DNA of 64,000 nt from Trujillonella endophytica (GCF_900110555.1 NZ_FOEE01000009.1:1-64000), one strand, 5' to 3'. Positions 42,387 to 59,112 are shown, numbered from the stretch's first letter. The notes: a model not told the origin generated them from the sequence alone. Translations and numbers: made by a program.

Positions 42387-43169
42387 TCAGCGGAGTGAGT
42401 AGCCGCCGTCCACCGTGAGGGTCGCCCCGGTCACGTAGGCCGAGGACCCCGACGCCAGGTACAGGTACATGCCGGCCAGGTCGGCCGCATTCCCCCACCG
42501 CCCGAGCGCGGTGTGCGCCACGATGCCCTGCTCGCGCTCGGCGTCGCGGTGCCAGTGGCGCCCCAGGCCGGTGTCGAACCACCCGAGGGCCACGGTGTTC
42601 ACGGTGATCGCCCGCGGGCCCAGCTCCTGGGCCAGCGACTGCACCAGCGCCTGCACCCCGCTCTTGGAGGCGGAGTACGCGCCGAGCCCGCCCAGTGGGC
42701 GGTCGCCGAGGACGGAGCCGGTCACGATGATGCGACCGCCCTCCCCCATCACCGCGGCGGCCGCGCGGGCGCCGAGAAAGGTCCCCGTCAGGTTGACGTC
42801 CACGATCTCGCGCCACGCGTCGGGTTCCATGTCGAGCACGGAGGTGAACTCCGGCGAGACACCCGCGTTGGCGATCCAGACGTCGAGACCGCCGAAGCGC
42901 TCCACCATGCCGCGGGCGACGGACTCGTTGAAGGCGGAGTCCCGGACGTCGCCCGCGCAGACGAGCGCCTCGCCGTCGAGGGAGGCAGCCACCTTCTGCA
43001 GCGCGTCCTCGGAGCGGGCGACCAGGCCCACCGAGGCGCCGGCGGCGTCGAAGGCCTCCGCCAGCAGGCGGCCGAGGCCGCGCCCGGCACCCGTGATGAC
43101 CACGCGCCGACCCGCCACATCGCCCCAGCCGGGGATCACCGCGTAGGTTTGACCGGTCGGTACAGACAC
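42387..43169 (-). CDS. SDR family oxidoreductase, first gene of the E1/ligase operon
   Basis: A 260-residue classical SDR with VVITGAGRGLGRLLAEAFDA, WIANAGVSPEF, catalytic Ser in IIVTGSVLGDRPLGG, YSASKSGVQ and the end VTGATLTVDGGYSLR. The start is decided by the promoter: TAGTTT (plus 43176-43181) ends 6 nt before the GTG at 43169, matching the other leaderless genes here. A GTG at 43139, just before VIPGWGDVAGRRV, is the alternative. A TetR-type palindrome covers the first codons. It leads the operon SDR-ADH-acyl-CoA dehydrogenase-ligase-E1-E2-like, extending to 35763. Confidence 0.88.
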   Translation of the reverse strand: MSVPTGQTYAVIPGWGDVAGRRVVITGAGRGLGRLLAEAFDAAGASVGLVARSEDALQKVAASLDGEALVCAGDVRDSAFNESVARGMVERFGGLDVWIANAGVSPEFTSVLDMEPDAWREIVDVNLTGTFLGARAAAAVMGEGGRIIVTGSVLGDRPLGGLGAYSASKSGVQALVQSLAQELGPRAITVNTVALGWFDTGLGRHWHRDAEREQGIVAHTALGRWGNAADLAGMYLYLASGSSAYVTGATLTVDGGYSLR

Positions 43170-43181
43170 AGCGCGAAACTA
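43149..43181. promoter_or_regulatory. Divergent control region with ACCGACCGGTC palindrome
   Basis: On the minus strand -10 TAGTTT (plus 43176-43181) precedes the GTG at 43169 by 6 nt. The motif GTACCGACCGGTCAA (minus; plus 43149-43163) then lies just downstream of the start point, where a bound repressor would block transcription. On the plus strand TTGACC (43149-43154) within the same palindrome could act as -35 for the crotonase gene at 43206. Confidence 0.6.
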
Positions 43182-43205
43182 ACACAGGACGCGGAGGACC
43201 CGACA

Positions 43206-44009
43206 GTGACCAGCACGCCGCAGACCGCCCCGGTGACACTCCGGCCACACCCCGCCGACGGGCGGCTGGCGGTCCTCCGCCTCGACCGCGCGCCCGTGAA
43301 CGCGCTCGACCAGGCGATGTGGGACCTGCTCGCCGCGGCCGCCGCGGAGTTGCACGACCCGGGCTCCCCCTACCGGGCCGTCGTGATCACCGGCGGCCCG
43401 AAGCACTTCGCGGCGGGCGCGGACATCCGGGAGATGGTCGACCTGACCCCCGAGGAGTTCGACCGGCGCAACCGCGTGCTCCAGGGGGCCTTCCACGGCC
43501 TGGCGACGGCGCCGCAGATCGTGCTCGCGGCCGTCAACGGCTACGCGCTCGGCGGCGGCTGCGAGCTGGCCCTCGCGGCCGACTTCCGCGTCGCCGGGAG
43601 CCGGACGGTGCTGGGTCTGCCCGAGGTGACGCTCGGCATCATGCCCGGCTCGGGCGGGACCCAGCGGCTCGCGCACGTCGTCGGCCTGCCCCGCGCGAAG
43701 GACCTCGTCCTGTCCGGCCGCCGCGTCGCCGCCGAGGAGGCGCTCGCGATCGGGCTTGTGGACCGGGTGGTGGACGACGCCGAGGTGTTCGACAGCGCCG
43801 TCGAGCAGGCGCTGGGCTTCGCCCGCGGCCCCCTCGCCCTCCGGCACGCGAAGCGGGCGCTCGACGCCAGCGTGGCGCTTCCCATCGAGGCCGGCCTGGC
43901 CCTGGAGGCCGATCTGATCGCGGCGTGCTTCGGCAGCGAGGACGCCCAGCGGGGGCTCCGCAGCTTCCTGGCGGACGGGCCCGGCAAGGCCTCGTTCACC
44001 GGCCGGTGA
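43206..44009 (+). CDS. Enoyl-CoA hydratase/isomerase family protein
   Basis: A 267-residue crotonase-fold enzyme. It has the CoA/oxyanion loops KHFAAGADIREMVDLTPEEF and GYALGGGCELALAADFRVAG, and the second catalytic Glu in LPEVTLGIMPGSGGTQRLAH. Both Glu residues expected of a true enoyl-CoA hydratase (CEL and PEV) are present, so syn-hydration of a 2-enoyl-CoA is likely. GTG at 43206 has GGAGG 8-12 nt upstream. It is divergent from the SDR-ADH operon and shares its palindrome; another SDR gene follows 95 nt downstream with its own promoter. Confidence 0.93.
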   Translation: MTSTPQTAPVTLRPHPADGRLAVLRLDRAPVNALDQAMWDLLAAAAAELHDPGSPYRAVVITGGPKHFAAGADIREMVDLTPEEFDRRNRVLQGAFHGLATAPQIVLAAVNGYALGGGCELALAADFRVAGSRTVLGLPEVTLGIMPGSGGTQRLAHVVGLPRAKDLVLSGRRVAAEEALAIGLVDRVVDDAEVFDSAVEQALGFARGPLALRHAKRALDASVALPIEAGLALEADLIAACFGSEDAQRGLRSFLADGPGKASFTGR

Positions 44010-44023
44010 GCACCCCCCTCCCA

Positions 44024-44052
44024 TTGTGTGTATCGACCGGTCTGCCTAGCGT
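44024..44052 (+). promoter_or_regulatory. Promoter with operator in the -35/-10 spacer
   Basis: -35 TTGTGT (44024-44029), exact 17-bp spacer, -10 TAGCGT (44047-44052). The spacer holds ATCGACCGGTCTG, the recurrent palindrome core. The ATG follows at 44105 with AGGAG 6 nt upstream. Confidence 0.7.
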
Positions 44053-44104
44053 GGCCGGGATTGCGGTCCACTGATCCATCGACGGCGTACGGCAGGAGTT
44101 CCAG

Positions 44105-45028
44105 ATGAGCACGTTCAGCTTCGAGGGCCGAGTGGCGGTCGTCAGCGGCGCCGGTCGCGGGATCGGCCGGGGCTACGCGCGCCTGCTGGCCGCGCGCGGC
44201 GCGAAGGTCGTCGTCAACGACCTCGGCGGGTCGATCGAGGGCGACGGCACCGACGCCGGACCGGCCCAGACCGTCGTCGACGAGATCGTGGCCGCGGGTG
44301 GCGAGGCGGTCGCCGACACCTCCGACGTGTCCACCGCCGCCGGCGGCGAGACGATCGTCGCCACCGCGGTGGAGCGCTTCGGTCGCATCGACGCCCTGGT
44401 CAACAACGCCGGCATCATCCGGTGGGCCGGCCTCCCCGAGGTCGATCTCGACAACCTCGAGCGCCACCTGGCCGTCCACCTCGCCGGGTCCTTCAACACG
44501 ATGCGGGCGGCCTGGCCGCACTTCGTCGAGCAGCAGTACGGCCGCGTCGTGCACACCACGTCGACCGGCCTGCTCGGCCTGCCGAACAACCTCGGGTACG
44601 CCGCGGCGAAGGCCGGGACGATCGGCATGGCCCGCAGCGCGAAGCTCGCGGGCGCCCCGCACGGGATCAAGGTCAACTGCATCGCGCCGGCGGCCATGAC
44701 CCGGATGGGCGGCGGCGACCCGCTGGGCGAGGAGGCCCCGCGCCGGGCCGGGCAGCCGTACATGCCCTCGGACGCGGTGGCGCCCCTGGTGGCCTACCTC
44801 GCCCACGAGGACTGCCCGGTCAGCGGCGAGGTCTACGTCGCCGGCGCGGGCCGCTACTCCCGGCTCTTCATCGCCTCGACCGAGGGCTGGCTGCACGACG
44901 CGGAGGGCACCGCGACGGTGGAGGACGTCGCCGCCAACTTCGCGGCGATCAACGACGAGTCCGGCTACTACGTGCCCGCCGATCTGATGGCGTGGTCGGG
45001 CGCCTTCCTCAAGCACCAGCTGGGCTGA
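44105..45028 (+). CDS. SDR family protein, multifunctional-enzyme-type 3-hydroxyacyl-CoA dehydrogenase-like
   Basis: A 307-residue SDR whose N-terminal half matches the D-3-hydroxyacyl-CoA dehydrogenase domain of peroxisomal multifunctional enzyme type 2: VAVVSGAGRGIGRGYARLLA, VVVNDLGGSIEGDGTDAGPA (the NDLGG motif is diagnostic), VNNAGIIRWAG, Ser in HTTSTGLLGLPNN and YAAAKAGTIG. No hydratase or SCP2 domain is attached. It probably oxidises a 3-hydroxyacyl-CoA with NAD+, following the hydratase encoded just upstream. Own promoter with operator-like palindrome; a hairpin follows at 45035. Confidence 0.9.
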   Translation: MSTFSFEGRVAVVSGAGRGIGRGYARLLAARGAKVVVNDLGGSIEGDGTDAGPAQTVVDEIVAAGGEAVADTSDVSTAAGGETIVATAVERFGRIDALVNNAGIIRWAGLPEVDLDNLERHLAVHLAGSFNTMRAAWPHFVEQQYGRVVHTTSTGLLGLPNNLGYAAAKAGTIGMARSAKLAGAPHGIKVNCIAPAAMTRMGGGDPLGEEAPRRAGQPYMPSDAVAPLVAYLAHEDCPVSGEVYVAGAGRYSRLFIASTEGWLHDAEGTATVEDVAANFAAINDESGYYVPADLMAWSGAFLKHQLG

Positions 45029-45034
45029 GGCGCC

Positions 45035-45066
45035 GCCCGCTCCGGCCTGACCCGGCCGGAGCGGGC
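45035..45066. terminator. Bidirectional terminator, SDR / TetR
   Basis: A 13-bp stem, GCCCGCTCCGGCC (45035-45047) and 45054-45066, has a 6-nt loop and lies between convergent genes. Confidence 0.8.
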
Positions 45067-45074
45067 CCCGCGGA

Positions 45075-45770
45075 TCAGGACGCGACGTCGGCCGGGTCGC
45101 GCAGGGACTCCAGGAGGGCGCGGCCGCGCGCGAGGTCGTCGGCGTCGTCGCCCGCGTCGGCGGGTGCCGAGGCGATGCCGTCGAGGAAGATCCGGCAGTA
45201 GAACGCCGCCAGGCCCTCCACCGTCAGGTCCCGCCGCCCGCCGAGCCACTGGTACGTGTAGTTGTGCAGGTTGAGGAACGCCAGGGTGGCGAGCTCGAGG
45301 TCCTCGGCCTGGACCAGACCCTGCTCCTGCCCCTCGGCCAGCGCATCCCGCACGCGCTGCTCGAACCGCTGGCGCTTGGCGCGGAACAGCGTCCGCGGCT
45401 CCCCCTGCAACTGCTGGTACTCGTGCAGGAAGACCCAGACGTGGTCGCGCCGGTGGAGGATCTGCCAGAGCAGGGACTCCGACAGCAGCCGCAGCCGCGC
45501 GCGGAAGCCCACCTCGAGCGAGGCGAGCGCCGCGGCCTCGGTGAGCAGCGGGTCCATGACCCGGTCGTGGATCTCGGCGAGCAGCGCTTCCTTGGAGCCG
45601 ATGTAGTAGTACAGCGCTCCCCGGGCCAGGCCGGCCGCGTCACCGATGTCGGCGACGCCGGTGCTCGCGTACCCGTTCTTGGAGAACAGTTCGACCGCCA
45701 CGTCGATGACGTGCTCGCGCTTGCGGTGGTAGCGCATGGTCTTCGCGCGCTCGCTACCAGGTGTGGACAT
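45075..45770 (-). CDS. TetR family transcriptional regulator
   Basis: A 231-residue TetR repressor. The HTH is HVIDVAVELFSKNGYASTGV, ADIGDAAGLARGALYYYIGS then KEALLAEIHDRVMDPL. The ligand domain is helical with VFLHEYQQLQGEPRTLFRAK, a pattern seen in fatty-acyl/steroid-type regulators. ATG at 45770 is chosen over a longer reading of non-conserved sequence. It sits in the middle of the genes carrying ACCGAYCGGTC palindromes (43.1, 44.0, 47.0, 49.7 kb) and is the natural candidate to bind them; its own upstream region shows no clear copy. An acyl-CoA intermediate as inducer is plausible. Confidence 0.9.
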   Translation of the reverse strand: MSTPGSERAKTMRYHRKREHVIDVAVELFSKNGYASTGVADIGDAAGLARGALYYYIGSKEALLAEIHDRVMDPLLTEAAALASLEVGFRARLRLLSESLLWQILHRRDHVWVFLHEYQQLQGEPRTLFRAKRQRFEQRVRDALAEGQEQGLVQAEDLELATLAFLNLHNYTYQWLGGRRDLTVEGLAAFYCRIFLDGIASAPADAGDDADDLARGRALLESLRDPADVAS

Positions 45771-45887
45771 CTCACCGATCCTCGAAGCCGGACGCCGCGA
45801 CCGGGGAACGGAGGTCAGACCCTCGGCGGTCGGCGGCACCGCGAGCGTCACGCTACACATCGTGCCGGGCGTCCCGGGCGACCGTGC

Positions 45888-45941
45888 GGGGTCCTCACCC
45901 TGGAGGAGGAGGCGATGCCGCCCCGCCCCGGTGAGGACCCC
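45888..45941 (-). terminator. Possible terminator after the cyclase-family gene
   Basis: GGGGTCCTCACC (45888-45899) and GGTGAGGACCCC (45930-45941) form a 12-bp perfect stem with a 30-nt loop. It begins 7 nt after the stop on the minus strand. Confidence 0.5.
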
Positions 45942-45948
45942 GCCGGCG

Positions 45949-46992
45949 TCACACGGTGGCGACCGGCGTCAGCGGGGACCCCTGGGTCCCGGGCAGCCGC
46001 AGCGGCGGCGCGGTGAGCAGGAAGCGGCTCCGCTCGTTCTCCCGCAGCCACGCCGCCAGGTCGTTCAGGTACCAGAGCTCACCCAGCGGCACCCCGAGCT
46101 TGAACAGGCACAGGTGGTGGATGGGCAGCAGGGTGTGCGGCTCGGGCTTGCGCGCCGCCCACCCCTCGACGGCGTAGTTGTCGGCCACCAGCGCCGAGAT
46201 CCCGGAGTCGGCGATCCACTCGAGCAGGGCCGGGTCGTCGCCGTCCAGGTAGGAGTGCATCGCCTGGATCCGGCTCGCGTCCGGGTTCCCGCCCCACTCC
46301 ATGACCTGGGTGGCGAAGCCGGTGTGCAGCAGCAGCATGTCGCCGGGCTCCACGACCACCTTGTCGGCCGCCATGATCTCCTGCAGCGTCTTCAGGTTCA
46401 CCGGCTGCCAGTCGTCGCCCAGGTGGTGGCGCAGGTCGATCAGCACGCCCCGGCCCTGGACGCCGTGCGCGGCCATGTGCTCGAGGCCGAGGTGGCGGGC
46501 GAAGCTCAGGCTGCCGCTGCCGTCACCCTTCGCGTCCTCCTTCGGGCCGACGATGTCGTCACCGGCGCGGTAGCCGTTGTAGTAGACGGCCTCGGGGACC
46601 CCGTCGCCGTCGGCGTCGAACTCCGCGCCCTGGTGGGCCAGCGCGTCCCACTGGGTCGAGTACTGCAGCCACAGCGTCACGACGTCGTCGGACCAGACGT
46701 CGATGTAGTGCTTGCTGATCGACTCGCGCGCGACGACGTTGTAGAAGACGTCCTGCTTGTGCTGCAGGTCCTCGGTGGGCCGCAGGATCGGCGGGTAGCG
46801 CCGCTGGTTCAGCGCCGAACCGCCGGGCAGGTCCAGCGGCAGGCTCAGGCTGAACGTCCGGCCTTCCCGGACCTCGCGGACCCCCTGGAGGACCTTCTCC
46901 GAGGTGAGCAGGTTGATCCGCCCCAACTCGTCGTCCTCGCCCCAGTCACCCCAGGTCGAACCGGGCGGACGTTGCTGCCACCGCTTGGCCAT
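45949..46992 (-). CDS. Cyclase family protein (metal-dependent hydrolase, kynurenine formamidase-like fold)
   Basis: A 347-residue member of the Cyclase (PF04199-type) family, long subgroup. It starts KRWQQRPPGSTWGDWGEDDE LGRINLL-like and contains YSTQWDALAHQGAEFDADGD, where the family motif HxGTHxDxPxH appears as STQWDxLxH: the Asp and last His are kept, the first His is not evident. RGVLIDLRHHLG, PGDMLLLHTGFATQVMEWGG and DNYAVEGWAARKPEPHTLLP follow. Relatives hydrolyse cyclic amides or open rings; some occur in cyclic-ketone and terpene catabolism. Its promoter (-35 TTGACC, -10 TACTAT) overlaps the recurrent palindrome, so it is part of the presumed regulon. Confidence 0.85.
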   Translation of the reverse strand: MAKRWQQRPPGSTWGDWGEDDELGRINLLTSEKVLQGVREVREGRTFSLSLPLDLPGGSALNQRRYPPILRPTEDLQHKQDVFYNVVARESISKHYIDVWSDDVVTLWLQYSTQWDALAHQGAEFDADGDGVPEAVYYNGYRAGDDIVGPKEDAKGDGSGSLSFARHLGLEHMAAHGVQGRGVLIDLRHHLGDDWQPVNLKTLQEIMAADKVVVEPGDMLLLHTGFATQVMEWGGNPDASRIQAMHSYLDGDDPALLEWIADSGISALVADNYAVEGWAARKPEPHTLLPIHHLCLFKLGVPLGELWYLNDLAAWLRENERSRFLLTAPPLRLPGTQGSPLTPVATV

Positions 46993-47038
46993 TCGGCGCT
47001 CCTCGTGGTCGGGACCGTCCGCAGTGACGGCCCCTCCG

Positions 47039-47070
47039 ATAGTATGGATTCCTGTACCGATCGGTCAATG
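47039..47070 (-). promoter_or_regulatory. Promoter with ACCGATCGGTC operator, cyclase / NTF2 gap
   Basis: Minus strand: -35 TTGACC (plus 47063-47068), 18-bp spacer, -10 TACTAT (plus 47039-47044). The plus-strand sequence TGTACCGATCGGTCAATG (47053-47070) is the palindrome and overlaps the -35 and half the spacer. The divergent NTF2-like gene starts at 47085 and may share the site. Confidence 0.72.
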
Positions 47071-47084
47071 AAGCGGAGGGCCCC

Positions 47085-47483: not shown

Positions 47484-47526
47484 CCGCACCGCCCGCTCCC
47501 CCATCCGCACCAGCACCGGAGGATCC

Positions 47527-48004: not shown

Positions 48005-49660
48005 TCAGGCGGCGGGGACCTGCAGCTTCGAGAAGGTCAGCGTGGGGAACCCGGTCTCGGCGTCCCGCGCCATCATCTTGCGCAGCGTCGGGCGCCCCGT
48101 CGGGTTCAGCAGCTGCCGCACCGGCTTGCCGGGGATGTTGCCGCCGTAGAAGTAGCTGCTGTCCAGGAACGACGACATCCGCGAGCTGTCGTTCATCATC
48201 GCGGTCCACTGCTCCTCGGCGGCGTCGTCGACCTCCACGACGTCCTGCCCGTGCTCCCGCGCGTGCAGCAGGACGTCCATCACGTAGTCGACCTGGTCCC
48301 CGGCGTAGCGCGGGTTGTTGCCGAGCGCGCCGTGCGGACCGCCGGGGAAGAAGAAGTTCGGGAAGCCCGCCGTCATGATGCCGAGATAGGTGCGCGGCCC
48401 GTCGGCCCAGTGCTCCTCCAGGGCCAGGCCCTGGCGCCCGCGGACGCCGAGGCGGTTCAGCGCGCCGGTGCCGAAGTCGTACCCCGTCGCCCAGATGATG
48501 ACGTCGTACTCCCGGTGACCCTCACTGGTCTCGATCCCCGTCTCGGTGATCCGCAGGATCGGCGTCTCGCGCAGGGAGACCAGGTCGACGTTCGGGTTGT
48601 TGTAGGCCTCGTAGTAGCCCGTGCCGAACGGCGGACGGCGGCCGCCGTAGCCGCTGTCCTTGGGGATGAGCCGCTCCGCGGTTACCGGATCGGAGACGAT
48701 GGCGCGGATCTTCGCCGCCATGAACTCGCACCACTCACGGTTGACCTCGGGGTTGAAGAGGAGGTCGATGTAGCTCTCGGTGAGCTTGCGGAACCCGGAG
48801 CTCGCCCACATCTGCTCGAAGAGCTCCTGCCACTGCTCCCGGGTGTCCTCGGTCGACTTGCGGCCGGTCGACGTGTGCAGGAACCCGCTGGGCGAGGCGT
48901 CCAGCGCCGCGACGATCTCGGCGAAGCGGGCCTTCAGGTCGGCATGCTCCTCCGGCGGGATGGGCCGGTTGTTCAGCGGTGTCACCCAGTCGGCGTTCAT
49001 CTGGTAGACGGTCAGGTTCGCGACCTCGTCGGCGATCGCCGGAACGATCTGCACGCCGCTGGAGCCGGTGCCGATCTGCGCGACCCGCAGGCCGCGGAAG
49101 TCGACGGACTCCTTGGGCCAGAGGCCGGTGTGGAGCTGCCGGCCGCGGAAGGCCTCCCGGCCCTCGATCGCCGGGATGAAGGGCACCGAGAGGTTGCCGC
49201 TCGCGGCCACCACGTAGCGGGCGCGCCAGGTGCGGCCGTCCTGGGTCCCGACGGTGGAGATGCCCGTCGCCTCGTCGAAGACCACCGAGGTCACCTTGGC
49301 GCCGAACTCGATGTGCCGGCGCATGTCGCACCGGTCGAGGACGAAGTCGAAGTACCCCTCGATCTCGGGCTGGCCCGCGTACTGCTCGGACCACTCCCAC
49401 TCCTGCCACAGCTCCTCGGAGAAGAGGAAGCCGTAGGACCAGCTCTCGGAGTCGAAGCGGGCCCCCGGGTAGCGGTTCCAGTGCCACACGCCACCCGGGC
49501 CGTCCGCGGCCTCGAGGAGGGTCACCGAGTAGCCGGCCTCCCGGGCGCGCCACAGCTGGTAGATGCCGGTCACGCCGGCACCGATGACGAGGACGTCGAC
49601 CGGAGCCCCTGCCGTCGCGCCGTCCTCTTCCGTTCCCGACGCCATCGACGGTCCCGTCAT
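48005..49660 (-). CDS. Baeyer-Villiger monooxygenase (class B flavoprotein monooxygenase)
   Basis: A 551-residue FAD- and NADPH-dependent monooxygenase that inserts oxygen next to a ketone, giving an ester or lactone. It has the FAD motif DVLVIGAGVTGIYQLWRARE, GGVWHWNRYPGARFDSESWS, the BVMO fingerprint FRGRQLHTGLWP (FxGxxxHxxxWP), the NADPH motif AQIGTGSSGVQIVPAIADE and IIWATGYDFGTGALNRLGV. The length and motifs match cyclohexanone/steroid monooxygenase relatives. Start at 49660 or a nearby ATG at 49645. The upstream gap has a GACCGATCGGTC palindrome. It is the likely ring-opening or side-chain-cleaving enzyme of the cluster. Confidence 0.95.
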   Translation of the reverse strand: MTGPSMASGTEEDGATAGAPVDVLVIGAGVTGIYQLWRAREAGYSVTLLEAADGPGGVWHWNRYPGARFDSESWSYGFLFSEELWQEWEWSEQYAGQPEIEGYFDFVLDRCDMRRHIEFGAKVTSVVFDEATGISTVGTQDGRTWRARYVVAASGNLSVPFIPAIEGREAFRGRQLHTGLWPKESVDFRGLRVAQIGTGSSGVQIVPAIADEVANLTVYQMNADWVTPLNNRPIPPEEHADLKARFAEIVAALDASPSGFLHTSTGRKSTEDTREQWQELFEQMWASSGFRKLTESYIDLLFNPEVNREWCEFMAAKIRAIVSDPVTAERLIPKDSGYGGRRPPFGTGYYEAYNNPNVDLVSLRETPILRITETGIETSEGHREYDVIIWATGYDFGTGALNRLGVRGRQGLALEEHWADGPRTYLGIMTAGFPNFFFPGGPHGALGNNPRYAGDQVDYVMDVLLHAREHGQDVVEVDDAAEEQWTAMMNDSSRMSSFLDSSYFYGGNIPGKPVRQLLNPTGRPTLRKMMARDAETGFPTLTFSKLQVPAA

Positions 49661-49721: not shown

Positions 49722-49742
49722 TTTCGACCGATCGGTCCAAAG
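49722..49742 (-). promoter_or_regulatory. GACCGATCGGTC palindrome upstream of the BVMO gene
   Basis: The perfect 12-bp palindrome GACCGATCGGTC lies at 49726-49737, within TTTCGACCGATCGGTCCAA. On the minus strand TTGGAC (plus 49735-49740) could be a -35, but no good -10 is visible at 17-18 bp. The BVMO start is 62 nt away. Confidence 0.55.
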
Positions 49743-49808: not shown

Positions 49809-49837
49809 TTGCCTGTACCGACCGCTTGTTCTAATTT
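49809..49837 (+). promoter_or_regulatory. Promoter of the SDR-crotonase operon with half-operator in spacer
   Basis: -35 TTGCCT (49809-49814), exact 17-bp spacer, -10 TAATTT (49832-49837). The spacer starts GTACCGACCGCTTG, a degenerate copy of the recurrent palindrome. The gene starts at 49956 with ACGAGGAGCGG upstream. Confidence 0.68.
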
Positions 49838-49955: not shown

Positions 49956-50696
49956 ATGTCGCTGAACGGAAAGGTCGCGGTCGTCACCGGCGGCGCGCGC
50001 GGCATCGGACGGGCGATCGCCCTCGTGCTCGCCCGGCACGGTGCCGCGGTCGCGGTCTGGGACCTCGACCTCGCCGGGGCCGAGGAGGCCGCCGCCGAGA
50101 TCCGCGCGGCCGGCGGAACCGCCGTCGCCGTCGGCGGCGACGCCGCCGAGGCGTCCTCCGTCCGCGCCGCCGCCGAGCGGACGCGTGCCGAGCTGGGCCC
50201 GGTCACCGTGCTCGTGAACAACGCCGGGATCAACGAGACCGCACGGTTCACCGAGCTGGCCGAGGACGCCTGGGACCGGGTGATCCGGATCAATCTGAAG
50301 GGCCCCTTCCTCGTCACCCAGGCGCTCGTCCCCGACATGCTCGAGGCCGGCTGGGGACGCATCGTCAACATCTCGTCCTCGTCCGCCCAGACCGGATCGC
50401 CCAACATGGCGCACTACGTGTCGTCCAAGGGCGGGGTGATCGGACTGACCAAGGCGCTGGCGATGGAGTACGTCGCCAAGGGCATCACCGTCAACCACGT
50501 GCCGCCGGGCTTCATCGACACCCCGCTCACCCGGGAGACGCTCGGCGACGTCGCCGCCGTCGCCAAGATGATGCCGATGAAGCGGGCCGGCACCCCGGAG
50601 GACGTCGCGCACGCCGTGGCGTACCTGGCCTCGGAGGAGGCCGGCTACGTGACCGGCCAGACGCTCAGCCCCAACGGCGGCCGGTACCTGGTCTGA
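49956..50696 (+). CDS. SDR family NAD(P)-dependent oxidoreductase
   Basis: A 246-residue classical SDR close to 3-oxoacyl-ACP reductase/FabG-like enzymes: VAVVTGGARGIGRAIALVLA, AVWDLDLAGAEEAAAEIRAA, LVNNAGINETARF, catalytic Ser in NISSSSAQTGSPN, YVSSKGGVIGL and YVTGQTLSPNGGRYLV. It probably oxidises an alcohol or reduces a ketone in the pathway, perhaps supplying the ketone to the BVMO encoded divergently. It has its own promoter with an operator-like half-site. Two further genes follow (60-nt gap, then a 4-nt overlap), forming an operon to 52831. Confidence 0.92.
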   Translation: MSLNGKVAVVTGGARGIGRAIALVLARHGAAVAVWDLDLAGAEEAAAEIRAAGGTAVAVGGDAAEASSVRAAAERTRAELGPVTVLVNNAGINETARFTELAEDAWDRVIRINLKGPFLVTQALVPDMLEAGWGRIVNISSSSAQTGSPNMAHYVSSKGGVIGLTKALAMEYVAKGITVNHVPPGFIDTPLTRETLGDVAAVAKMMPMKRAGTPEDVAHAVAYLASEEAGYVTGQTLSPNGGRYLV

Positions 50697-50756
50697 GCTC
50701 GAGCACATCCGGGGGGCCTCCCCGTCGTCAGTCAGCGCAACGAAGCGAGGAGAGAC

Positions 50757-52055
50757 ATGGACGAGAGCACCCCCCGACCGATCCGCGTGGTCCAGTGGGC
50801 GACCGGCAACATCGGCTCGCGCGCCCTGCGCGCCGTGATCGAGCACCCCGAGCTGGAGCTCGCGGGCGTCTACGTCACGAACCCGGACAAGGTGGGCCGG
50901 GACGCCGGCACGCTCGCGGGCACCGGCGTCACGACGGGCGTGCTGGCCACCGGTGACGCGGACGCGATCGTGGCCCTGGACGCCGACGTGGCGCTGTACA
51001 TGCCGTTGCGGTGCGACTTCGACGAGGTCTGCCGGCTGCTCGCGGCCGGCCTGGACGTCGTCACCACGCGCGGGGAGTTCCACCACCCGGCGAGCCTGGA
51101 CCCGGACGTGCGCGCCCGCGTCGAGCGGGCCTGCGCGGAGGGCGGCACCTCGATCCACGCCACGGGGAGCAGTCCCGGCTTCATCACCGAGGCCATCCCC
51201 CTGGTGCTGACGTCGATCGCGCGCCGGCTCGACCACCTCTCCATCGACGAGTACGCCGACCTCTCCCGGCGGAACTCACCCGGCCTGGTCTTCGACATCA
51301 TGGGCTTCGGAAAGCGGCCGGAGGAGCTGGGCAGGAAGCGGGCCGCGCACCTCGCGGCCGCCTTCGGCCCCTCCCTGCGCGTGACCGCCGAGGCCCTCGG
51401 TCTGCCGCTGGACGCCGTCGAGGCCACCGAGGAGCTCGCGCTCGCCACGCGGGACGTGCAGATCGCCGCCGGGCCGGTCCCCGCGGGCACCGTCGCCGGT
51501 CAGCGCACCGTCATCTCCGGGATGCGCAACGGCGTCGAGCTGATCCGGTTCCGGGCCAACTGGATCGTCACGACCGACATCGACGCCGACTGGGACATGC
51601 AGGCCACCGGCTGGCGGGTCCAGGTGGCCGGCGACACCCCGCTCGACGTCCGGCTCGAGTTCGCCGTCCCGCTGGAGCGGATGGCCGAGTACTCCCCCGG
51701 CTACACCGCCCACCGCGCCGTCAACGCCATCGCGGCGGTGCGCGCCGCCGCACCGGGGATCCGGACCAGCATGGACCTGCCGCAGGTGGTCGCGCGGCTC
51801 GGGGACCCGCCGATCAGCGACGCCGAGGCGGCGGAGCTCTCCGGGCTGGTGACCGCGGGCGCCCAGGACCCGAACTTCCTCCCGATGGAGGCCGACCGGA
51901 TGGCCGGGGAGACCGCGGCGAACGCCGCCCACGAGCACGACGCCGAGGACGCCGCGGGGCTGGTGGGCACGCCCAGCCACGATCCGAACTTCCTCCCCGT
52001 CGAGACCGGGCGGGTCGTCGGTGAGGACGACGCCGGGGACCTGGCACGGTCGTGA
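50757..52055 (+). CDS. NAD(P)H-dependent amine dehydrogenase / dihydrodipicolinate reductase-like protein
   Basis: A 432-residue protein with an N-terminal Rossmann domain RVVQWATGNIGSRALRAVIE (the family start; VQWxTGNxG), then GVYVTNPDKVGRDAGTLAG, DVVTTRGEFHHPASL, and a C-terminal domain with GFGKRPEELGRKRAAHLAAA. Relatives include 2,4-diaminopentanoate dehydrogenase, but many actinobacterial members sit in terpene/steroid/aromatic clusters with unknown roles. The last ~75 residues are unusual: the motif DPNFLP occurs twice, in AQDPNFLPMEADRM and SHDPNFLPVETGRV, 36 residues or so apart. GAGGAGAG precedes the ATG. It overlaps the crotonase gene by 4 nt. Confidence 0.82.
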   Translation: MDESTPRPIRVVQWATGNIGSRALRAVIEHPELELAGVYVTNPDKVGRDAGTLAGTGVTTGVLATGDADAIVALDADVALYMPLRCDFDEVCRLLAAGLDVVTTRGEFHHPASLDPDVRARVERACAEGGTSIHATGSSPGFITEAIPLVLTSIARRLDHLSIDEYADLSRRNSPGLVFDIMGFGKRPEELGRKRAAHLAAAFGPSLRVTAEALGLPLDAVEATEELALATRDVQIAAGPVPAGTVAGQRTVISGMRNGVELIRFRANWIVTTDIDADWDMQATGWRVQVAGDTPLDVRLEFAVPLERMAEYSPGYTAHRAVNAIAAVRAAAPGIRTSMDLPQVVARLGDPPISDAEAAELSGLVTAGAQDPNFLPMEADRMAGETAANAAHEHDAEDAAGLVGTPSHDPNFLPVETGRVVGEDDAGDLARS

Positions 52056-52831
52056 GCGACGACCTGGGGACGCCGTTCCTGAGGCTGGAGCGCGAGGGAC
52101 CGATCGCCTGGTGCGTGATCGACCGCCCCGCGGCGCGCAACGCCCTCACGTCGGCCATGTACTACGGCATCAAGCGGGCGGTGTACCTGGTCAACGGCGA
52201 CCCCGACCTGGCCGCCCTCGTCATCACGGGGACCGGCGACGTCTTCGCTCCCGGCGGCGACCTGGGCGGGGGGTCGGACGCCGGTGAGCAGCCCGTGGCG
52301 GCGCTGGGGCCGGACACGCTGCCCTTCCTGGCCGTCCGCGACAGCCGGGCGCCGGTGATCGCCGCGGTCAACGGAATCTGCCAGGGCGGCGGCCTGCTCA
52401 TCGCGATGATGGCCGACATCGCCGTCGCCAGCGATCGGGCCACCTTCCGCGCGCCGGAACTGCTGCGCGGGATCGTGGACGCCACGTTCGCCGCGACGCT
52501 GCCCGCGCACGTCGGCGTGGCCGTCGCCCGCGATCTGCTGCTCTCGGCGCGGCGCCTCGACGCGGCCGAGGCCCAGCGGCTCGGGATCATCTCCCGCGTC
52601 GTCCCGCACGACGGGCTGCGGGAGGCCGCACTGTCAGCCGCCGCCGAGGTCCTGCGGACCGCCCCCGGGGCACGGGCCCAGACCAAGCGGATGCTCAACG
52701 AGCACTACCGGCCCATCGACTACCCCACGATGTTCGCCGCGCTCGAGGAGTCGCCCGAGCCGCGCGAGGGGATGCGGGCCTTCATGGAGAAGCGCCCGCC
52801 GGCCTGGGTTCCCCCGGACCTGCCGGCCTGA
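52052..52831 (+). CDS. Enoyl-CoA hydratase/isomerase family protein lacking one catalytic Glu
   Basis: A 259-residue crotonase-fold protein. The oxyanion loops are FAPGGDLGGGSDAG and GICQGGGLLIAMMADIAVAS. In hydratases the second loop carries Glu (CEL); here it is LLI, while the other Glu is kept in APELLRGIVD. One-Glu crotonases are usually isomerases, ring-opening hydrolases or decarboxylases rather than hydratases, so the reaction is open. It starts with a GTG overlapping the amine-dehydrogenase-like gene (GTGA) and ends the operon that begins at 49956. A 38-bp palindromic terminator follows. Confidence 0.87.
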   Translation: MSDDLGTPFLRLEREGPIAWCVIDRPAARNALTSAMYYGIKRAVYLVNGDPDLAALVITGTGDVFAPGGDLGGGSDAGEQPVAALGPDTLPFLAVRDSRAPVIAAVNGICQGGGLLIAMMADIAVASDRATFRAPELLRGIVDATFAATLPAHVGVAVARDLLLSARRLDAAEAQRLGIISRVVPHDGLREAALSAAAEVLRTAPGARAQTKRMLNEHYRPIDYPTMFAALEESPEPREGMRAFMEKRPPAWVPPDLPA

Positions 52832-52839
52832 TCGCCGTC

Positions 52840-52877
52840 CCCGGGACGTCCGCACCGATCGGTGCGGACGTCCCGGG
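52840..52877. terminator. Bidirectional terminator, crotonase / FMO
   Basis: A perfect 38-bp palindrome centred at 52858/52859 starts CCCGGGACGTCCGCACC. It lies between stops at 52831 and 52883. Its centre, ACCGATCGGT, coincidentally matches the operator core, but no promoter is near. Confidence 0.85.
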
Positions 52878-52882
52878 CCGGC

Positions 52883-54760
52883 TCAGCCCAGGGCCGGCGT
52901 CGCGGCGTCGGAGTCCGCGCGGTCGTGCGGCGTGAAGCCGGCGCTCGCGGCCCAGGCCGGGTCCCCGCTCGGGTCCATGGGCTCGATACCCGACTCGATG
53001 GCCTTGATCTGCAGCGCCATGAACTTCGAGTAGTACCGCGCCATCCGGATGAACCCGGTGCCGAACCAGAGCCCGGGCTGGGCCGACCGGCGCCAGGTGT
53101 TCGCGTACTCGCCGTCCGCCGCGCGTCCGTAGGCCTTGTCGATCCTCGCCGCCGCCGTGCCGAGGGTGGGCCGGATGGACGCCCACAGCCAGTCGTAGCC
53201 CGTGGCGAAGACGATGAGGTCGAGCTGCATCTCGGACCCGTCGCTGAAGACGCCGGTCCGCCCGTCCTTGATCTCGACGAGCTCCACGCCCTGCTTGAGG
53301 CCGATCTTCCCCTCCGCGATCAGCTGGGCCGCACCGATGTTGATGTGGTAGCTGTCCTTGCCGACCGCGATGGAGCCGTAGATCCCCCCGCCGTCGGCGC
53401 CCCAGTCCAGCTTGAAGCCGCGGGCCACGAGCGCGTCGAGTAGCTCCTGGTCCTCCTTGGCTGCCAGCTTCACCAGCTTCTTCTGCAGCTCGTCCGACAG
53501 CGCGTTCGGGAGCGCGTAGGCCATCTGGTCGGCGTAGTCCGGGGGCACGGTGGTGTCCTCGTGGAACAGCCCGGCCCAGATCTTGTGGTAGGTCGGAAAG
53601 TCCACGACGTAGGTGGAGCTGCGCTGCAGCATGGTCACGTCGGTGCCGTGCTCGGCGAGGTCGTGGGCGATCTCGTGGCCGCTCACGCCGGCCCCGATGA
53701 CGAGGGCGGTCTTGCCCGGGAAGCGGTCGCCGTCCTGGAACGCGTCGGAGTGCGTGTACACGCCGGTGAAGGTCTCCAGCCCCTTGATCGCCGGAATCCT
53801 GGGGTTGCCGTACAGGCCGGCGGCGACGACGAAGTGCCGCGGGTGCAGCTCGCGGATCGACCCGTCCTCCCGGCGGACACGGACCGTCCACCGCTGCGCC
53901 ACCTCGTCGTAGTGCGCGTTGACGAACGTGGTCGAGGTCCAGACGTTCAGGTCCAGCAGCGTCACGTAGGACTCGAGGAAGTCGGCGAACTTGTCCTTGG
54001 GCGTGTGCTCGGTCCAGGTGGGCGGCAGCGGCAGGTAGGGCAGGTGGTCGCCGTACACGCTGCTGTGCAGCGCGAGCGAGGCGTAGCGCTTGCGCCAGGT
54101 GTCCCCGACCCGGGCCTCCCGGTCGATGACCAGCGTGGGCACGTCCAGCGCCTGCAGCCGCGCGGCGATCGACAGCCCGTTGTGCCCGGCGCCGAGCACC
54201 AGCACCGCCGGGTCGGAGTCCTCGAACGCCAGCTCCTTGCGCCGGTCGGCGCTCCAGCGCGTGCGGTTGGGAACGGTGCCGTGCACCTTGCCGATCGGAC
54301 GGTGGTGCCGGATCCGCTCGGGATGCCCCTGCAGCCCGTCCACCTGGGACTGGAACACCGTCGCCAGCGGACGCCCCGTCGCCGTGCTCAGCCGGACGTG
54401 CCCCCGGTCGAGCCGGTCCCTGGTGGTGAAGTCGAAGAAGGCGGCGACCTCGCCGTTGAACTCGAAGGGCGGCTGGTCGGTGTTCAGCGTGAACCCGCGG
54501 GCATCCGCGGCCTTCGCCAGCTCCAACAGGCGCGGCACCAGCTCGTCACGGCCGATCTTGTGGCTGAAGTCCCAGGTGAAGGCCATGAAGTCGCGCCAGG
54601 AGGCGTCCTCGACGAACAGGACCTCGAGGTCGGGCGCCGAGCCCCGCTCGAGTGCGTCCGCGAAGGCCGCGAGCCACTCGGCGGCGACCGTCGCCGCGGC
54701 TTCGGTAGATGCGGCCGGCGCGGGGGCGCCCTGGGTGGTCTCCTGCAGGGTGTCGGTCAC
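52883..54760 (-). CDS. Flavin-containing monooxygenase with N-terminal SnoaL-like domain
   Basis: A 625-residue fusion. Residues ~20-150 form a SnoaL/NTF2-like domain (WLAAFADALERGSAPDLEVL, FVEDASWRDFMAFTWDFSHK, VAAFFDFTTRDRLDRGHVRL). From ~170 comes a flavin monooxygenase: FAD motif VLVLGAGHNGLSIAARLQAL, DRFPGKTALVIGAGVSGHEI for NADPH, FTGVYTHSDAFQDG and LIVFATGYDWLWASIRPTL. Such fusions are common in fungi and actinobacteria; the classical BVMO fingerprint is imperfect, so oxygenation of a ketone, nitrogen or sulfur centre is possible. GTG at 54760 has GGAGG 10 nt upstream. Gap of ~90 nt to the upstream KstD-like gene suggests one operon. Confidence 0.88.
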   Translation of the reverse strand: MTDTLQETTQGAPAPAASTEAAATVAAEWLAAFADALERGSAPDLEVLFVEDASWRDFMAFTWDFSHKIGRDELVPRLLELAKAADARGFTLNTDQPPFEFNGEVAAFFDFTTRDRLDRGHVRLSTATGRPLATVFQSQVDGLQGHPERIRHHRPIGKVHGTVPNRTRWSADRRKELAFEDSDPAVLVLGAGHNGLSIAARLQALDVPTLVIDREARVGDTWRKRYASLALHSSVYGDHLPYLPLPPTWTEHTPKDKFADFLESYVTLLDLNVWTSTTFVNAHYDEVAQRWTVRVRREDGSIRELHPRHFVVAAGLYGNPRIPAIKGLETFTGVYTHSDAFQDGDRFPGKTALVIGAGVSGHEIAHDLAEHGTDVTMLQRSSTYVVDFPTYHKIWAGLFHEDTTVPPDYADQMAYALPNALSDELQKKLVKLAAKEDQELLDALVARGFKLDWGADGGGIYGSIAVGKDSYHINIGAAQLIAEGKIGLKQGVELVEIKDGRTGVFSDGSEMQLDLIVFATGYDWLWASIRPTLGTAAARIDKAYGRAADGEYANTWRRSAQPGLWFGTGFIRMARYYSKFMALQIKAIESGIEPMDPSGDPAWAASAGFTPHDRADSDAATPALG

Positions 54761-54851
54761 GATCGGTGTCCTCCGGACGGGTTCTCGGTCTCGGTTCGGG
54801 GAGCGGCGCCCGCCGTCGGGGCGGGGCAGTCGCAGGGTCTGGCGGGAGGGG

Positions 54852-56492
54852 TCACGGGGTGCCTGCCGGCGCCACGGCCGCGCGGTCGCGGACCGCCGCC
54901 CGCCCGGCGTAGAGGCCCCACACGCCCGCTACCGCGAGCGTCGCCCCGGCGCCGCCGTAGACCATGCCGGCCGGGCTCGCCATGGCATTGCCGGCCGCGT
55001 ACAGGCCGCGGATGACGTCGCCGTCCACGTCGAGGACGCGCCCCTCGCGGTCGGTCCGCGGACCGCCCTTGGTGCCCAGCGCGGAGATCGCCACCTCCAC
55101 GGCGTAGAAGGGGCCGGTCTCCACCGGCCCGAGCGTCGCGAACGGCGACTCGGGGTCGCCCATCCGGCCGCCGGGGAAGCGGTCGAAGGCGCTCTCGCCC
55201 CGGCCGAAGTCCGGGTCGACGCCGGCGCGGGCGTGCTCGTTGAACCGCTCGACCGTCGCCCGGAGCTCGTCCGCCGGCACACCGAGCGCCCCGGCCAGCT
55301 CCTCGAGCGTTCCGGCGCGGGTCACCCAGTCCGGCAGCTCGCCGCCCGGCGGGAGCCCGAAGACGCCGAACCGGTCGACGGTGGATCGGTCGAACACCAT
55401 GTAGGCCGGGACGTTGAGGTAGTCGAGCTTGGACTCGTCCAACCGGTGGAAGGCGCCGCCGATGGCGTTGTAGTTCGCGGCCTCGTTGGCGAACCGGCGG
55501 CCGTAGCGGTTGACCATGATGGCGCCGGGCAGGGCCCGCTCCCGCGAGGCGAGCAGGCCGTTGGGTCCGCCGTCCCGGCGCGTGCCGGGGTACAGCACGA
55601 TCGGCGACCACCAGGCCTCGCGCATGTTGCCCAGCTGAGCGCCCAGGCGCATCGCCATGCGCAGACCGTCGCCGGAGTCGGTCGGCGCACCGAACGGCTC
55701 GGTGAGCGGCCCGCGCAGGAAGTCGCGGACCAGGGCGCGGTCGTACTCGAAGCCGCCCGTGGCGAGGACCACCGCGCCGGCGTGCACCTCCTGCGCGCCG
55801 TCGGCCGTCTCGATCTCGACGCCGGTGACGGCGCCGCCGTCGGTGAGCAGCCGCAGGCCCCGGCTGCCGGTCGCGACATGGACGCCGCGCTCCAGGCAGG
55901 CGCGCAGCAGGCCACCCACGAGGGCCCGGCCCAGGCCCTCGATCCGCGCCTCCTCGCGCTCGGCGAGCACCTCGGGGGTCAGGAACCCGGTGCCGCCGCC
56001 CAGGGGGGACTCGGCGATCAGCATCCGGCGCACGTCGCCGGCGATGCGGTCGACCCACTCCTCCATGCCCACGAAGGAGAAGAAGTCCGGCTCGATCGAC
56101 CGGCCCCCGCCGGGCATGCCGCCCGGGTGCTCGGGGTGGTAGTCGGGATAGCCCTCGACCAATCGCAGCCGGAGCTCGGTGTTCGCCTCGAGGAAGTCGA
56201 CGAACTGCGGCCCGCCATCGACCAGCGCCTCGGCGAGCTCGGGGAGGATCAGCCCGTTCGACAGGCTGGCCAGGTACTCCAGGCCCCGCTCGCGGGAGTC
56301 CTCGACACCGGCCGCGCGCGCCGGCTGGTTGTTGGGGAACCAGATGGTCCCGCCGGAGAGGGCGGTCGTCCCCCCGAGCAGCTCGGCCTTCTCGTACAGG
56401 GCGACGGTGCCGCCCTCCACCGCCGCGGCGAGCGCCGCGGTCAGCCCCGCCGCTCCTGATCCGAGGACCACCACGTCGTAGGTCTGTCGCAT
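54852..56492 (-). CDS. FAD-dependent oxidoreductase, 3-ketosteroid-delta1-dehydrogenase/fumarate reductase-like
   Basis: A 546-residue flavoprotein of the FAD_binding_2 family. The start YDVVVLGSGAAGLTAALAAA then LYEKAELLGGTTALSGGTIW is the family's ADP-binding motif; VVLATGGFEYDRALVRDFL, RFANEAANYNAIGGAFHRLD and the FAD-contacting end GLYAAGNAMASPAGMVYGGA with GATLAVAGVWG follow. It resembles KstD-type enzymes that desaturate ring A next to a ketone, but the exact ketosteroid residues cannot be confirmed by eye. The ATG at 56492 gives the family-like start MRQTYDVVVLG. Desaturation of a cyclic ketone is the most likely role. Confidence 0.87.
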   Translation of the reverse strand: MRQTYDVVVLGSGAAGLTAALAAAVEGGTVALYEKAELLGGTTALSGGTIWFPNNQPARAAGVEDSRERGLEYLASLSNGLILPELAEALVDGGPQFVDFLEANTELRLRLVEGYPDYHPEHPGGMPGGGRSIEPDFFSFVGMEEWVDRIAGDVRRMLIAESPLGGGTGFLTPEVLAEREEARIEGLGRALVGGLLRACLERGVHVATGSRGLRLLTDGGAVTGVEIETADGAQEVHAGAVVLATGGFEYDRALVRDFLRGPLTEPFGAPTDSGDGLRMAMRLGAQLGNMREAWWSPIVLYPGTRRDGGPNGLLASRERALPGAIMVNRYGRRFANEAANYNAIGGAFHRLDESKLDYLNVPAYMVFDRSTVDRFGVFGLPPGGELPDWVTRAGTLEELAGALGVPADELRATVERFNEHARAGVDPDFGRGESAFDRFPGGRMGDPESPFATLGPVETGPFYAVEVAISALGTKGGPRTDREGRVLDVDGDVIRGLYAAGNAMASPAGMVYGGAGATLAVAGVWGLYAGRAAVRDRAAVAPAGTP

Positions 56493-56680
56493 CGCACGCC
56501 TCACCACTCTGGGGATTCGCGACGTCGAGAGAGTGCCGTCGGGCCCGTCATCGGGCTCGCTCCGCCATCCCGGCATCGTTCACATGTTGCACAGCACTGT
56601 TCGTAGATAGCTACAGGGAGACTAGGCAGGGGCTCCGCCGCCCGCAAGGGGCCCGGGGGTGCCGCGGTCCCGGCCGGCTT

Positions 56681-56719
56681 CCGTGCCCCGATCCGACCAC
56701 CGGCCGGATCGGGGCACGG
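56681..56719 (-). terminator. Terminator of the P450-ferredoxin operon
   Basis: A 15-bp stem, CCGTGCCCCGATCCG (56681-56695) and 56705-56719, has a 9-nt loop. It begins 3 nt after the ferredoxin stop on the minus strand. Confidence 0.85.
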
Positions 56720-56722
56720 AGC

Positions 56723-56926
56723 TCAGTCGTCGTCCTCGCCGGCCAGGCTCAGGGCCCCGGTCGGGCACGCCGAGATCGCGTCCCGGACCTCTTCCTCCGT
56801 GCCGCCGTCCGGGTCGAGGACGAACGCGATCGTCGACTCGTCCTGGGCAAAGGTCTTCGGCGCGTAGATGGTGCACTGACCCGACCCCATGCACAGGTCG
56901 CGGTTCACGCGGATGTCGAGGGCCAC
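56723..56926 (-). CDS. Ferredoxin, 3Fe-4S type
   Basis: A 67-residue single-cluster ferredoxin. Cluster ligands are Cys in DLCMGSGQCTIYAPKTF (C-x5-C) and Cys in AISACPTGALSL, the three-Cys pattern of P450-associated [3Fe-4S] ferredoxins. It carries electrons one at a time to the P450 encoded just upstream. The GTG at 56926 has AGGA 8 nt upstream; a GTG at 56953, overlapping the P450 stop as GTGA, would add nine residues and is also possible. No ferredoxin reductase gene is seen in the window. Confidence 0.9.
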   Translation of the reverse strand: MALDIRVNRDLCMGSGQCTIYAPKTFAQDESTIAFVLDPDGGTEEEVRDAISACPTGALSLAGEDDD

Positions 56927-56949
56927 GGTGCCATTCCTCGCTGACGTCG

Positions 56950-58224
56950 TCACTGGGTGAACTGGAGGTGCAGGTTCATCAGGCCACGGAACATGTACGT
57001 CGGCATGTACTGGTAGCGACGGGCGCCGGCCGGGCCGTGGTGGGACTCCGAGACGGCGATGTCCGTCGTCCGGTCGAACAGCCGCTCGATCGAGATCCGT
57101 ACCTCCGAGCGGGCCAGCGGCGCCCCCGGGCAGGTGTGCACGCCGTGCCCGAACGCCACGTGCCGGCGGACGTTGGGACGGTCGGGGCGGAACTCCATCG
57201 GGTCCTCGAACTGGCGAGGATCGCGGTTGGCCGCCCCGTGCAGCAGCAGGATCCGCATGCCGGCCTTGAGCTCCACGCCACCGAGGGTCGTCGTCTTGCG
57301 GACCAGGCGGAAGGCGCCCTTGATCGGCCCCTCGGTGCGGAGCACCTCCTCGAGGAACCGGGGGATCAGCGCCCGGTCGGCACGCAGTGCCTTCTGCAGC
57401 TCCGGGTCGTCGCCGATGATCTGGAGGGCCGTGCCCAGCAGGCGGACGGTCGTCTCCTGGCCGGCGGCGAAGAGGTTGGACGCGATGCGCGCGACCTCCA
57501 GCGGCTCCGGCAGGGTGCCGTCGGGGAAGGTCGCGGTGGCCATGCCGGTCAGCACGTCCTCGCGCGGCTCCCGGCGGCGCTCCTCGATCCGCTCGACGAA
57601 GTAGTCGTAGAGGGGGGCGAGCGAGTGGTGGGCCGACCGCTCGTGCAGGTCACCGTCGCCCAGCGAGTTCTGCCCCATCCCGGCCAGCTCCAGCAGGTGG
57701 GCGTGGTCGGACTCGGGGACCCCGAGCAGGTCGGCGATGATCAGCAGCGTGTACGGCTGGGCGTAGTCGTCGATGTACTCGCACCCGCCCCGGGGGAGGA
57801 TCACGTCGAGCTGGCGGTCGGTCTGCCGCCAGATGAACTCCTCGTTCTGCTGCAACCGCTTCGGGGTGATGAGCCCCATCAGCAGCGCCCGGTGCGCCGT
57901 GTGCTTGGGCGGGTCGAACGTGACGAGCTGGTCCCCCTGCGGCCAGGAGTCGCGGTACCGCTCCACGAGCGCGGTGATGTCGTCGCCGGCGACCTCGACG
58001 TCGGCCGGGAACGGCGAGGAGGGCCCCATGACGAGGTTGGCCGAGGAGAAGGTGTCCGTGTCCCGCCAGACGGTGAGCGCCTCCTCGAACCCCGTGACGA
58101 TGGCGCAGCCGTGCCGCTGGTCGACGAACACCGGCGCCTGGCGGACCAGGATGTCGTAGTAGGGGTACGGGTCGAGCGCCGTGGCCTTGTCGGTGAAGTG
58201 GTCGATCGAGCTCACGTCGGTCAT
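56950..58224 (-). CDS. Cytochrome P450 (with adjacent ferredoxin)
   Basis: A 424-residue soluble bacterial P450. The I-helix oxygen-activation motif is [14 protein letters not shown], the K-helix ExxR is [20 protein letters not shown], and the heme-binding Cys lies in [20 protein letters not shown]. Length and motifs are complete. It probably hydroxylates the cluster's hydrophobic substrate, using the ferredoxin encoded directly downstream. The start at 58224 gives [20 protein letters not shown]. It lies 79 nt after the carboxymuconolactone-decarboxylase-like gene, so probably one operon from the promoter near 59.1 kb. Confidence 0.95.
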
Positions 58225-58303
58225 GCGTCGGCTCCAGTCAGGCAGTTCCGGGTCTGTGGGGTGGGAAGGACGGTCGGAGCGGTCCCCGGTGCTCCGGCGC
58301 GGG

Positions 58304-58957
58304 TCATGGGATGCGCTCGGCCGGGAAGCCCTCGGCCCCGGCGTCGAGCTCGACGTCGAAGTTCTCGAGGGCCATTCCCAGCGCGTCGTAGGCGGCGACG
58401 GTGAAGACGATGTCCATCATCTGCCGCCGGTCGAAGTGCTCGCACAGGGCCGCCCAGACGTCGTCGCCGATGCGGCGGTTCTCGCACAGCTGGTCGACGG
58501 CGCGGAGGACGAGGGCGTCGACGCTGCCCCAGAGCGGCGCGTCGGGGCCGACGTCCAGGGCGGCGATCTCGTCGTCGCTCATCCCCGCCGTCCGTGCCAT
58601 GCGCACGTGCTGGGCCCACTCGTACTCGCTACGGCGCAGCCACGCCGTCCGGACGGTGATCATCTCGCGGACGCGATCGGTCAGTGTCGACCGGAAGAGG
58701 TGGTTGTTGAACACGAACCAGCTCTTCATCAGCGCCGGGTGATGGCTGAGCACGCCGATGAGGTTGGACGTCCCGGCTCCCCGCCGGGCCGGCGTCGACT
58801 CCCGCGGCGGCGCGGAGTCCGGCGGAGCCGGCTCGGCGGGCGCGCCGTTCTCCGCCGGCGGCCGCGGCTTGCGCGGCGGCCGCAGGACCGACAGGGCGTC
58901 GAGCACGTCGGCGTCCCACTCCTCCGCCGGGAGCGGGGGGATACGGCCGTCGCTCAC
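58304..58957 (-). CDS. Carboxymuconolactone decarboxylase family protein
   Basis: A 217-residue CMD/AhpD-fold protein. A Pro/Ala-rich insert (about residues 25-60) precedes the core [50 protein letters not shown]-like and [20 protein letters not shown]. The redox CxxC of AhpD is absent; the E-x-x-W-x-x-H pattern (EYEWAQH) marks the non-redox branch, whose reactions are mostly unknown. GTG at 58957 has GAGGGAGGGG upstream. It is the first gene of the CMD-P450-ferredoxin unit and is preceded by a promoter carrying the recurrent palindrome. Confidence 0.85.
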
Positions 58958-59084
58958 GCGCCCCTCCCTCTGCCCCGGCGGTCGCCCGCCGGGCCTGATG
59001 CGCTCGTCCGAGCTGCCACGACCTCGCCCCACATCTACGTCGATGTGCGCCCCCGGACAGCGGGGCTGTCGACGGGGCGGCTTT

Positions 59085-59112
59085 TCAGTACCGACCGGTT
59101 GGTCCAAAACAA
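59085..59112 (-). promoter_or_regulatory. Promoter of the CMD-P450-ferredoxin operon with operator
   Basis: Minus strand: -35 TTGTTT (plus 59107-59112), 16-bp spacer, -10 TACTGA (plus 59085-59090). The spacer contains the recurrent palindrome, plus strand GTACCGACCGGTTGGTCC (59088-59105). The gene starts ~130 nt downstream. Confidence 0.62.

Follow-up and report, generated by a model that had tools for sequence, protein, structure and literature searches.

The 64-kb stretch of Trujillonella endophytica DNA analysed here (the window) contains six non-coding copies of the palindrome ACCGAYCGGT (extended form TGTACCGAYCGGTCRA), which very probably are operators of the TetR-family regulator encoded at 45075–45770 and would block a set of catabolic promoters until an inducer releases the protein. 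Since the palindrome precedes matching genes in other soil bacteria that encode the same repressor, we regard the arrangement as a real, previously undescribed TetR-type switch. The sites, their conservation, their positions at promoters and their co-occurrence with this TetR gene can be read directly from the genomes compared.

The palindrome and the genes behind it

All six copies listed in the preliminary description are present where it had placed them, among the following features:

36518..43142, minus strand: SDR1, Zn-ADH, acyl-CoA dehydrogenase, AMP ligase and dehydrogenase E1; proposed unit behind the 43152 site
43149..43164, minus strand: putative operator TGTACCGACCGGTCAA, core 43152–43161, between the divergent SDR1 and crotonase ECH1
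43206..44009, plus strand: crotonase ECH1
44024..44052, plus strand: predicted promoter with core ATCGACCGGT (44032–44041) in its spacer, before SDR2
44105..45028, plus strand: SDR2
45075..45770, minus strand: TetR-family regulator (TetR_N and TetR_C_24), proposed binder of the sites
45949..46992, minus strand: cyclase-family hydrolase (PF04199)
47039..47068, minus strand: predicted promoter with the operator over its -35, core 47056–47065, before the cyclase (minus) and shared with the SnoaL pair (plus)
47085–47483 and 47527–47925, plus strand: two SnoaL-like proteins
48005..49660, minus strand: BVMO1, a Baeyer-Villiger monooxygenase (nearest solved structure: phenylacetone monooxygenase)
49724..49739, minus strand: putative operator TGGACCGATCGGTCGA, core 49727–49736, before BVMO1
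49809..49837, plus strand: predicted promoter with the degenerate core ACCGACCGCT (49817–49826) in its spacer, before SDR3, the DAPDH-like gene and ECH2
49956..52831, plus strand: SDR3, a DAP dehydrogenase-like protein and crotonase ECH2
52883..58957, minus strand: BVMO2-like flavoprotein, KstD-like flavoprotein, ferredoxin, P450 and CMD protein; proposed unit(s) behind the 59090 site
59087..59106, no strand assigned: putative operator ACCGACCGGTTGGTCC with overlapping cores 59090–59099 and 59094–59103, upstream of CMD, P450, ferredoxin, KstD-like and BVMO2

With up to one mismatch, ACCGAYCGGTC has 20 matches in the window, compared with 8.6 ± 3.6 in shuffled sequence, and none of 100 shuffles reached 20. 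Matches in coding DNA taken by themselves show little signal; the six sites that carry it have A+T-richer flanks and are all non-coding, in a window that is 91% coding. Counting the bare core is a weak test, because CGAYCGGTC is common in this genome of 74% G+C (181 places per strand). This abundance, along with the chance copies found in coding DNA, is what speaks for the palindromes being products of base composition, an explanation to which we assign a negligible probability: the extended motif is confined to the cluster, its position is conserved across genera and its flanks are A+T-rich.

The confinement emerged from pattern searches with the extended motif over the 4.87-Mb genome. At one mismatch or fewer, TGTACCGAYCGGTCNA occurred at three places, all at 43–50 kb of the window, and the operators at 43149–43164 and 47056–47065 matched without any mismatch. 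Among the places with two mismatches, 44029 and contig position 90539 are non-coding and have good scores; nearly all of the remainder are coding and low-scoring, the exceptions being a weak non-coding match in contig C27 (score 15.3) and another with a score of 6.5. Genome-wide, the motif is thus non-coding and concentrated in the cluster rather than equally frequent in coding or random DNA, and in this respect the regulon of the preliminary description stands. A symmetric matrix trained on fifteen sites from the TetR loci of other genera alone, then run on the window, gave its top places to the same six sites (the 59090/59094 pair counted once), led by 49724–49739 (score 27.8) and including 59087–59106 (17.2); the next-best match was coding and lower. 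Simulated sequence reaches a maximum of 13.7 per 64 kb on average; by score alone the two weakest sites (14.6 and 13.2) therefore lack significance, and their assignment as putative operators relies on where they lie, on the promoter layout and on their conservation in the congener.

The site at contig position 90539 represents a seventh putative operator, TGGACCGATCGGTCGT (C13:90539–90554; approximately 6539–6554 of locus L070), outside the window. It lies upstream of a periplasmic-binding-protein gene (PF13458; C13:90542) and is kept in the congener genome G002, by which the predicted regulon reaches past the window to this solute-binding-protein gene.

Two further copies were set aside. The related site at 20207–20216, which had been linked to the shared motif, is a different site and not a regulon member; its matrix score of 8.6 is at noise level. 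The region 20200–20220 holds a palindrome of its own, CCGAGCGACCGGTCGG, roughly 20 bp in front of the gene at 20229. This gene precedes the TetR gene at 20938, and the palindrome is possibly the operator of that TetR itself. An exact copy at 52854 was rejected as an operator, as it forms the core of a long hairpin between convergent genes (52838–52880, around ACCGATCGGT). G002 keeps this hairpin with a changed core, and we therefore assume a terminator-like element.

Conservation and the choice of regulator

TetR 45075 contains TetR_N (E 1.8e-15) and TetR_C_24 (E 1.1e-20) domains, which place it in the TetR family; the conserved palindrome would be the operator recognized by its dimer, a role predicted here from sequence. 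Within the genus, G002 is the only other genome found to encode this protein (90% identical), and G001 lacks it. All six sites are kept in G002, with 15 or 16 of the 16 operator positions identical versus 51–84% identity for the surrounding intergenic DNA. The operators at 43149–43164 and 49724–49739 are conserved at 16/16 positions, the one at 59087–59106 at 15/16, and the one within 44024–44052 also at 15/16, against 51% for the rest of its intergenic region.

This pattern bears on the question which TetR binds the sites. They could belong to the TetR at 62653, the one at 20938 or a distant one, with TetR 45075 merely travelling with the cluster; many actinobacterial TetR proteins bind CCG-rich palindromes, and about 0.7 kb separates the 20207 copy from TetR 20938 downstream of it, with a short gene of the same direction following the copy. 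We consider this unlikely. TetR 62653 finds its best match in G002 at only 42% identity and elsewhere in the genome, and TetR 20938 has no orthologue there at all; because G002 keeps every site, neither can be the shared regulator. TetR 45075, however, adjoins the sites in the congener and in Streptomyces, Amycolatopsis and Nocardia, and this conservation across genera supports the central place that the preliminary description had given it. A copy of TetR 62653–63246 with 87% identity is present at G000:C20:127933–128517.

Orthologues of TetR 45075 with 66–70% identity are encoded by two Streptomyces, one Amycolatopsis and two Nocardia, and in the DNA around them the palindrome recurs in non-coding positions, mostly before orthologues of the same genes. 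The pairing seen in the window is found for SDR1 in Streptomyces and Nocardia and for ECH1, SDR2, the cyclase/SnoaL pair, BVMO1 and SDR3 in Nocardia. A counterpart of the 43149–43164 site precedes the orthologues of SDR1 and ECH1 in both Streptomyces and Nocardia, SDR2 is also preceded by a site in Nocardia, and BVMO1 is preceded by one at loci L058, L101, L102 and L085. In Amycolatopsis, an ABC transporter unit that runs on into SnoaL, cyclase and TetR genes has two sites in front of it. In Nocardia vinacea a site precedes an amidohydrolase; the amidohydrolase of the window has none directly upstream. The locus of the Pseudonocardia nigra relative (42%) lacks such sites, a search of plasmids turned up no close TetR relative, and 396 sampled genomes of the phylum yielded no further orthologue.

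Across Nocardia, 6 of 148 species contain the promoter-operator 26-mer TTGATTGTAYCGACCGRTWGKTCTAA with at most two mismatches and none contains its reversed control; TetR 45075 is encoded in the same six of 150 species. The whole cluster is inherited together, and this co-occurrence therefore does not separate regulator from cluster. All six species also possess a paralogue, TetR2, which is about 47% identical and has a similar operator. An exception to the pairing of sites and TetR 45075 is a Streptomyces plasmid (L085): it carries the cyclase (79.9%), BVMO, SnoaL pair, P450, ferredoxin, E1 and ligase genes together with sites, and TetR2 is the only such TetR on it (the plasmid alone was covered).

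The paralogue offers another reading, in which two repressors, TetR 45075 and a relative of about 47–50% identity in Nocardia and other actinobacteria, share operators and one of them took over both sets here. The recognition stretches differ mainly by R to K (LARGALYYYI versus LAKGALYYYI), the paralogue loci carry TGTACCAGTCGGTCTA and TTGTACCGATTGTTCGA beside E1, ADH and TetR genes, and the E1/ligase genes, which adjoin the paralogue in other genomes, are behind the 43152 site here. In the present genome the closest other relative of TetR 45075 has only 28% identity, and TetR2 is thus absent, so this reading could describe the history of the system and not its mechanism in this organism; it is improbable, if marginally less so than control by another TetR of the genome. 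Copies of the diverged operator type (TGTACCAGTCGGTCTA, TTGTACCGATTGTTCGA) near TetR2 and E1/ADH genes are located at L078 (9569 and 12480), L082 (8774 and 12474) and L085 (18306).

Promoter layouts and the proposed switch

Two arrangements of operator and promoter recur. In the first, present at ten sites across several genera, the -35 ends 2 bp before the core, the -10 starts 5 bp after it at a spacing of 17 bp, and the hexamers typically are TTGATT and TAAAAT. The window has two such promoters, 44024–44052 (-35 TTGTGT at 44024–44029, -10 TAGCGT at 44047–44052) and 49809–49837, where TTGCCT and TAATTT flank the operator; a matching promoter precedes SDR3 in Nocardia (L058, L059, L101). In the second, the TTGACC of the operator serves as -35 and TAGCAT or TACTAT follows 17–18 bp on. 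The cyclase promoter of the window is of this type (minus strand; TTGACC at 47068–47063, 18 bp, TACTAT at 47044–47039), and the TTGACC/TAGCAT version is found at the cyclase promoters of L059, L102, L103 and L085, which include further Nocardia.

Three of the four promoters drawn earlier are borne out, with layouts that recur in other genera. The fourth, at 59085–59112, did not hold up: about 14% of random upstream positions in the window score as well as its hexamers, and it points away from CMD-P450. The putative operator at 59090 is conserved though this promoter is weak and not supported. On the scale used, about 2% of upstream positions drawn at random reach a promoter score of at least 9.5. 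The top-scoring hexamers at 43152 and 59090 do not exceed chance and those at 49727 hardly exceed it; the leaderless start suggested at 43149 could not be confirmed.

According to the proposed mechanism, a dimer of TetR 45075 would bind ACCGAYCGGT and, without inducer, keep RNA polymerase from the genes behind the six sites of the window and the one beyond it, because the operator is located between -35 and -10 (SDR2, SDR3) or on the -35 (cyclase promoter). A pathway intermediate, perhaps an acyl-CoA thioester (the ligand class is a guess), would then release the protein and switch on the P450, BVMO, SDR, cyclase, crotonase and ligase genes and the solute-binding protein together. Dimer binding, repression rather than activation and ligand release are inferred from the TetR family. 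The direction of control is unreadable from sequence alone, which leaves room for TetR 45075 acting as an activator; we regard this as very unlikely, since a dimer bound in the spacer or on the -35 should block polymerase, and PfmR and PaaR, which are compared below, both repress (PMC7022988, PMC2770484).

The matrix scan of the window detected no site directly upstream of 45770 that would indicate autoregulation. The TetR gene follows the cyclase gene, but, as judged by eye, hairpin-forming repeats separate them in the window, G002, L057, L058 and L059, which makes read-through into the TetR gene from the operator-bearing cyclase promoter uncertain. In the window the repeat is situated at 45860–45950, and the relatives have one of unrelated sequence. 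Behind this hairpin, the window and G002 share the identical stretch GATGTGTAGCGTGACGC, a possible promoter of the TetR gene itself.

The pathway and comparison with known systems

The enzyme set, comprising a P450 with ferredoxin, two BVMO-like proteins, three SDRs, a KstD-like protein, the cyclase-family hydrolase, crotonases, a ligase and an acyl-CoA dehydrogenase, would fit ring oxidation, ketone formation, Baeyer-Villiger insertion, hydrolysis and beta-oxidation-like steps. None of the family models names the substrate of the pathway, and literature searches found no named pathway with such a gene set; our guess is an alicyclic or terpenoid-like ketone. More tentatively than the operator assignment, and with somewhat less than even confidence, we propose a patchy, undescribed regulon for a cyclic (alicyclic or terpenoid-like) compound, whose promoters may be split or shared in Nocardia by two paralogous TetRs of overlapping operator preference, and in this genus a single TetR may have come to control the entire pathway. 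For a pathway that no family model names, the analysis supplies a candidate regulator with its putative operator, a list of genes and two conserved promoter layouts, so that the substrate can be looked for with a simple reporter screen. The TetR1/TetR2 pair furthermore provides a natural case of operator/repressor divergence. Otherwise this is an ordinary, though unusually clean, TetR regulon.

Three known systems invite comparison. KstR2 (4W1U, 4W97) resembles TetR 45075 in family, near-full-length similarity and its actinobacterial catabolic regulon. It differs in its operator, a palindrome of the CAAG..CTTG type, and in its regulon, which serves late cholesterol degradation. Among solved structures, the closest in sequence is 3VPR (phmmer E 1e-17), that of PfmR (PMC10636190). 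PfmR (TTHB023) of Thermus thermophilus binds CTGACCGATCGGTCAG at about 2 nM, and like putative ones of the window its operators (CTGACCGATCGGTCAG, TACCGACCGNTNGGTN) overlap core promoters; it controls genes of acyl-CoA metabolism (PMC7022988). The similarity of the proteins is remote and the phylum different, PfmR controls phenylacetic and fatty acid genes whereas the window regulon consists of BVMO, P450 and cyclase genes, and PfmR has sites at its own promoter whereas TetR 45075 has none directly upstream; given the remote similarity and the different regulon genes, TetR 45075 was rejected as a PfmR orthologue. In Burkholderia cenocepacia, paaA is under a negative control that depends on the TetR-type PaaR and on the conserved ACCGACCGGTCGGT, located between -10 and -35 (PMC2770484). 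PaaR is likewise a TetR-type repressor of a catabolic regulon, that of the phenylacetic acid pathway, and the comparison with it covered operator and layout. The layout of these two systems, ACCG-NN-CGGT overlapping -35/-10, is found at three promoters of the window. Operator and layout are hence of a known kind (PfmR, PaaR), and the regulon is new to the sources searched.
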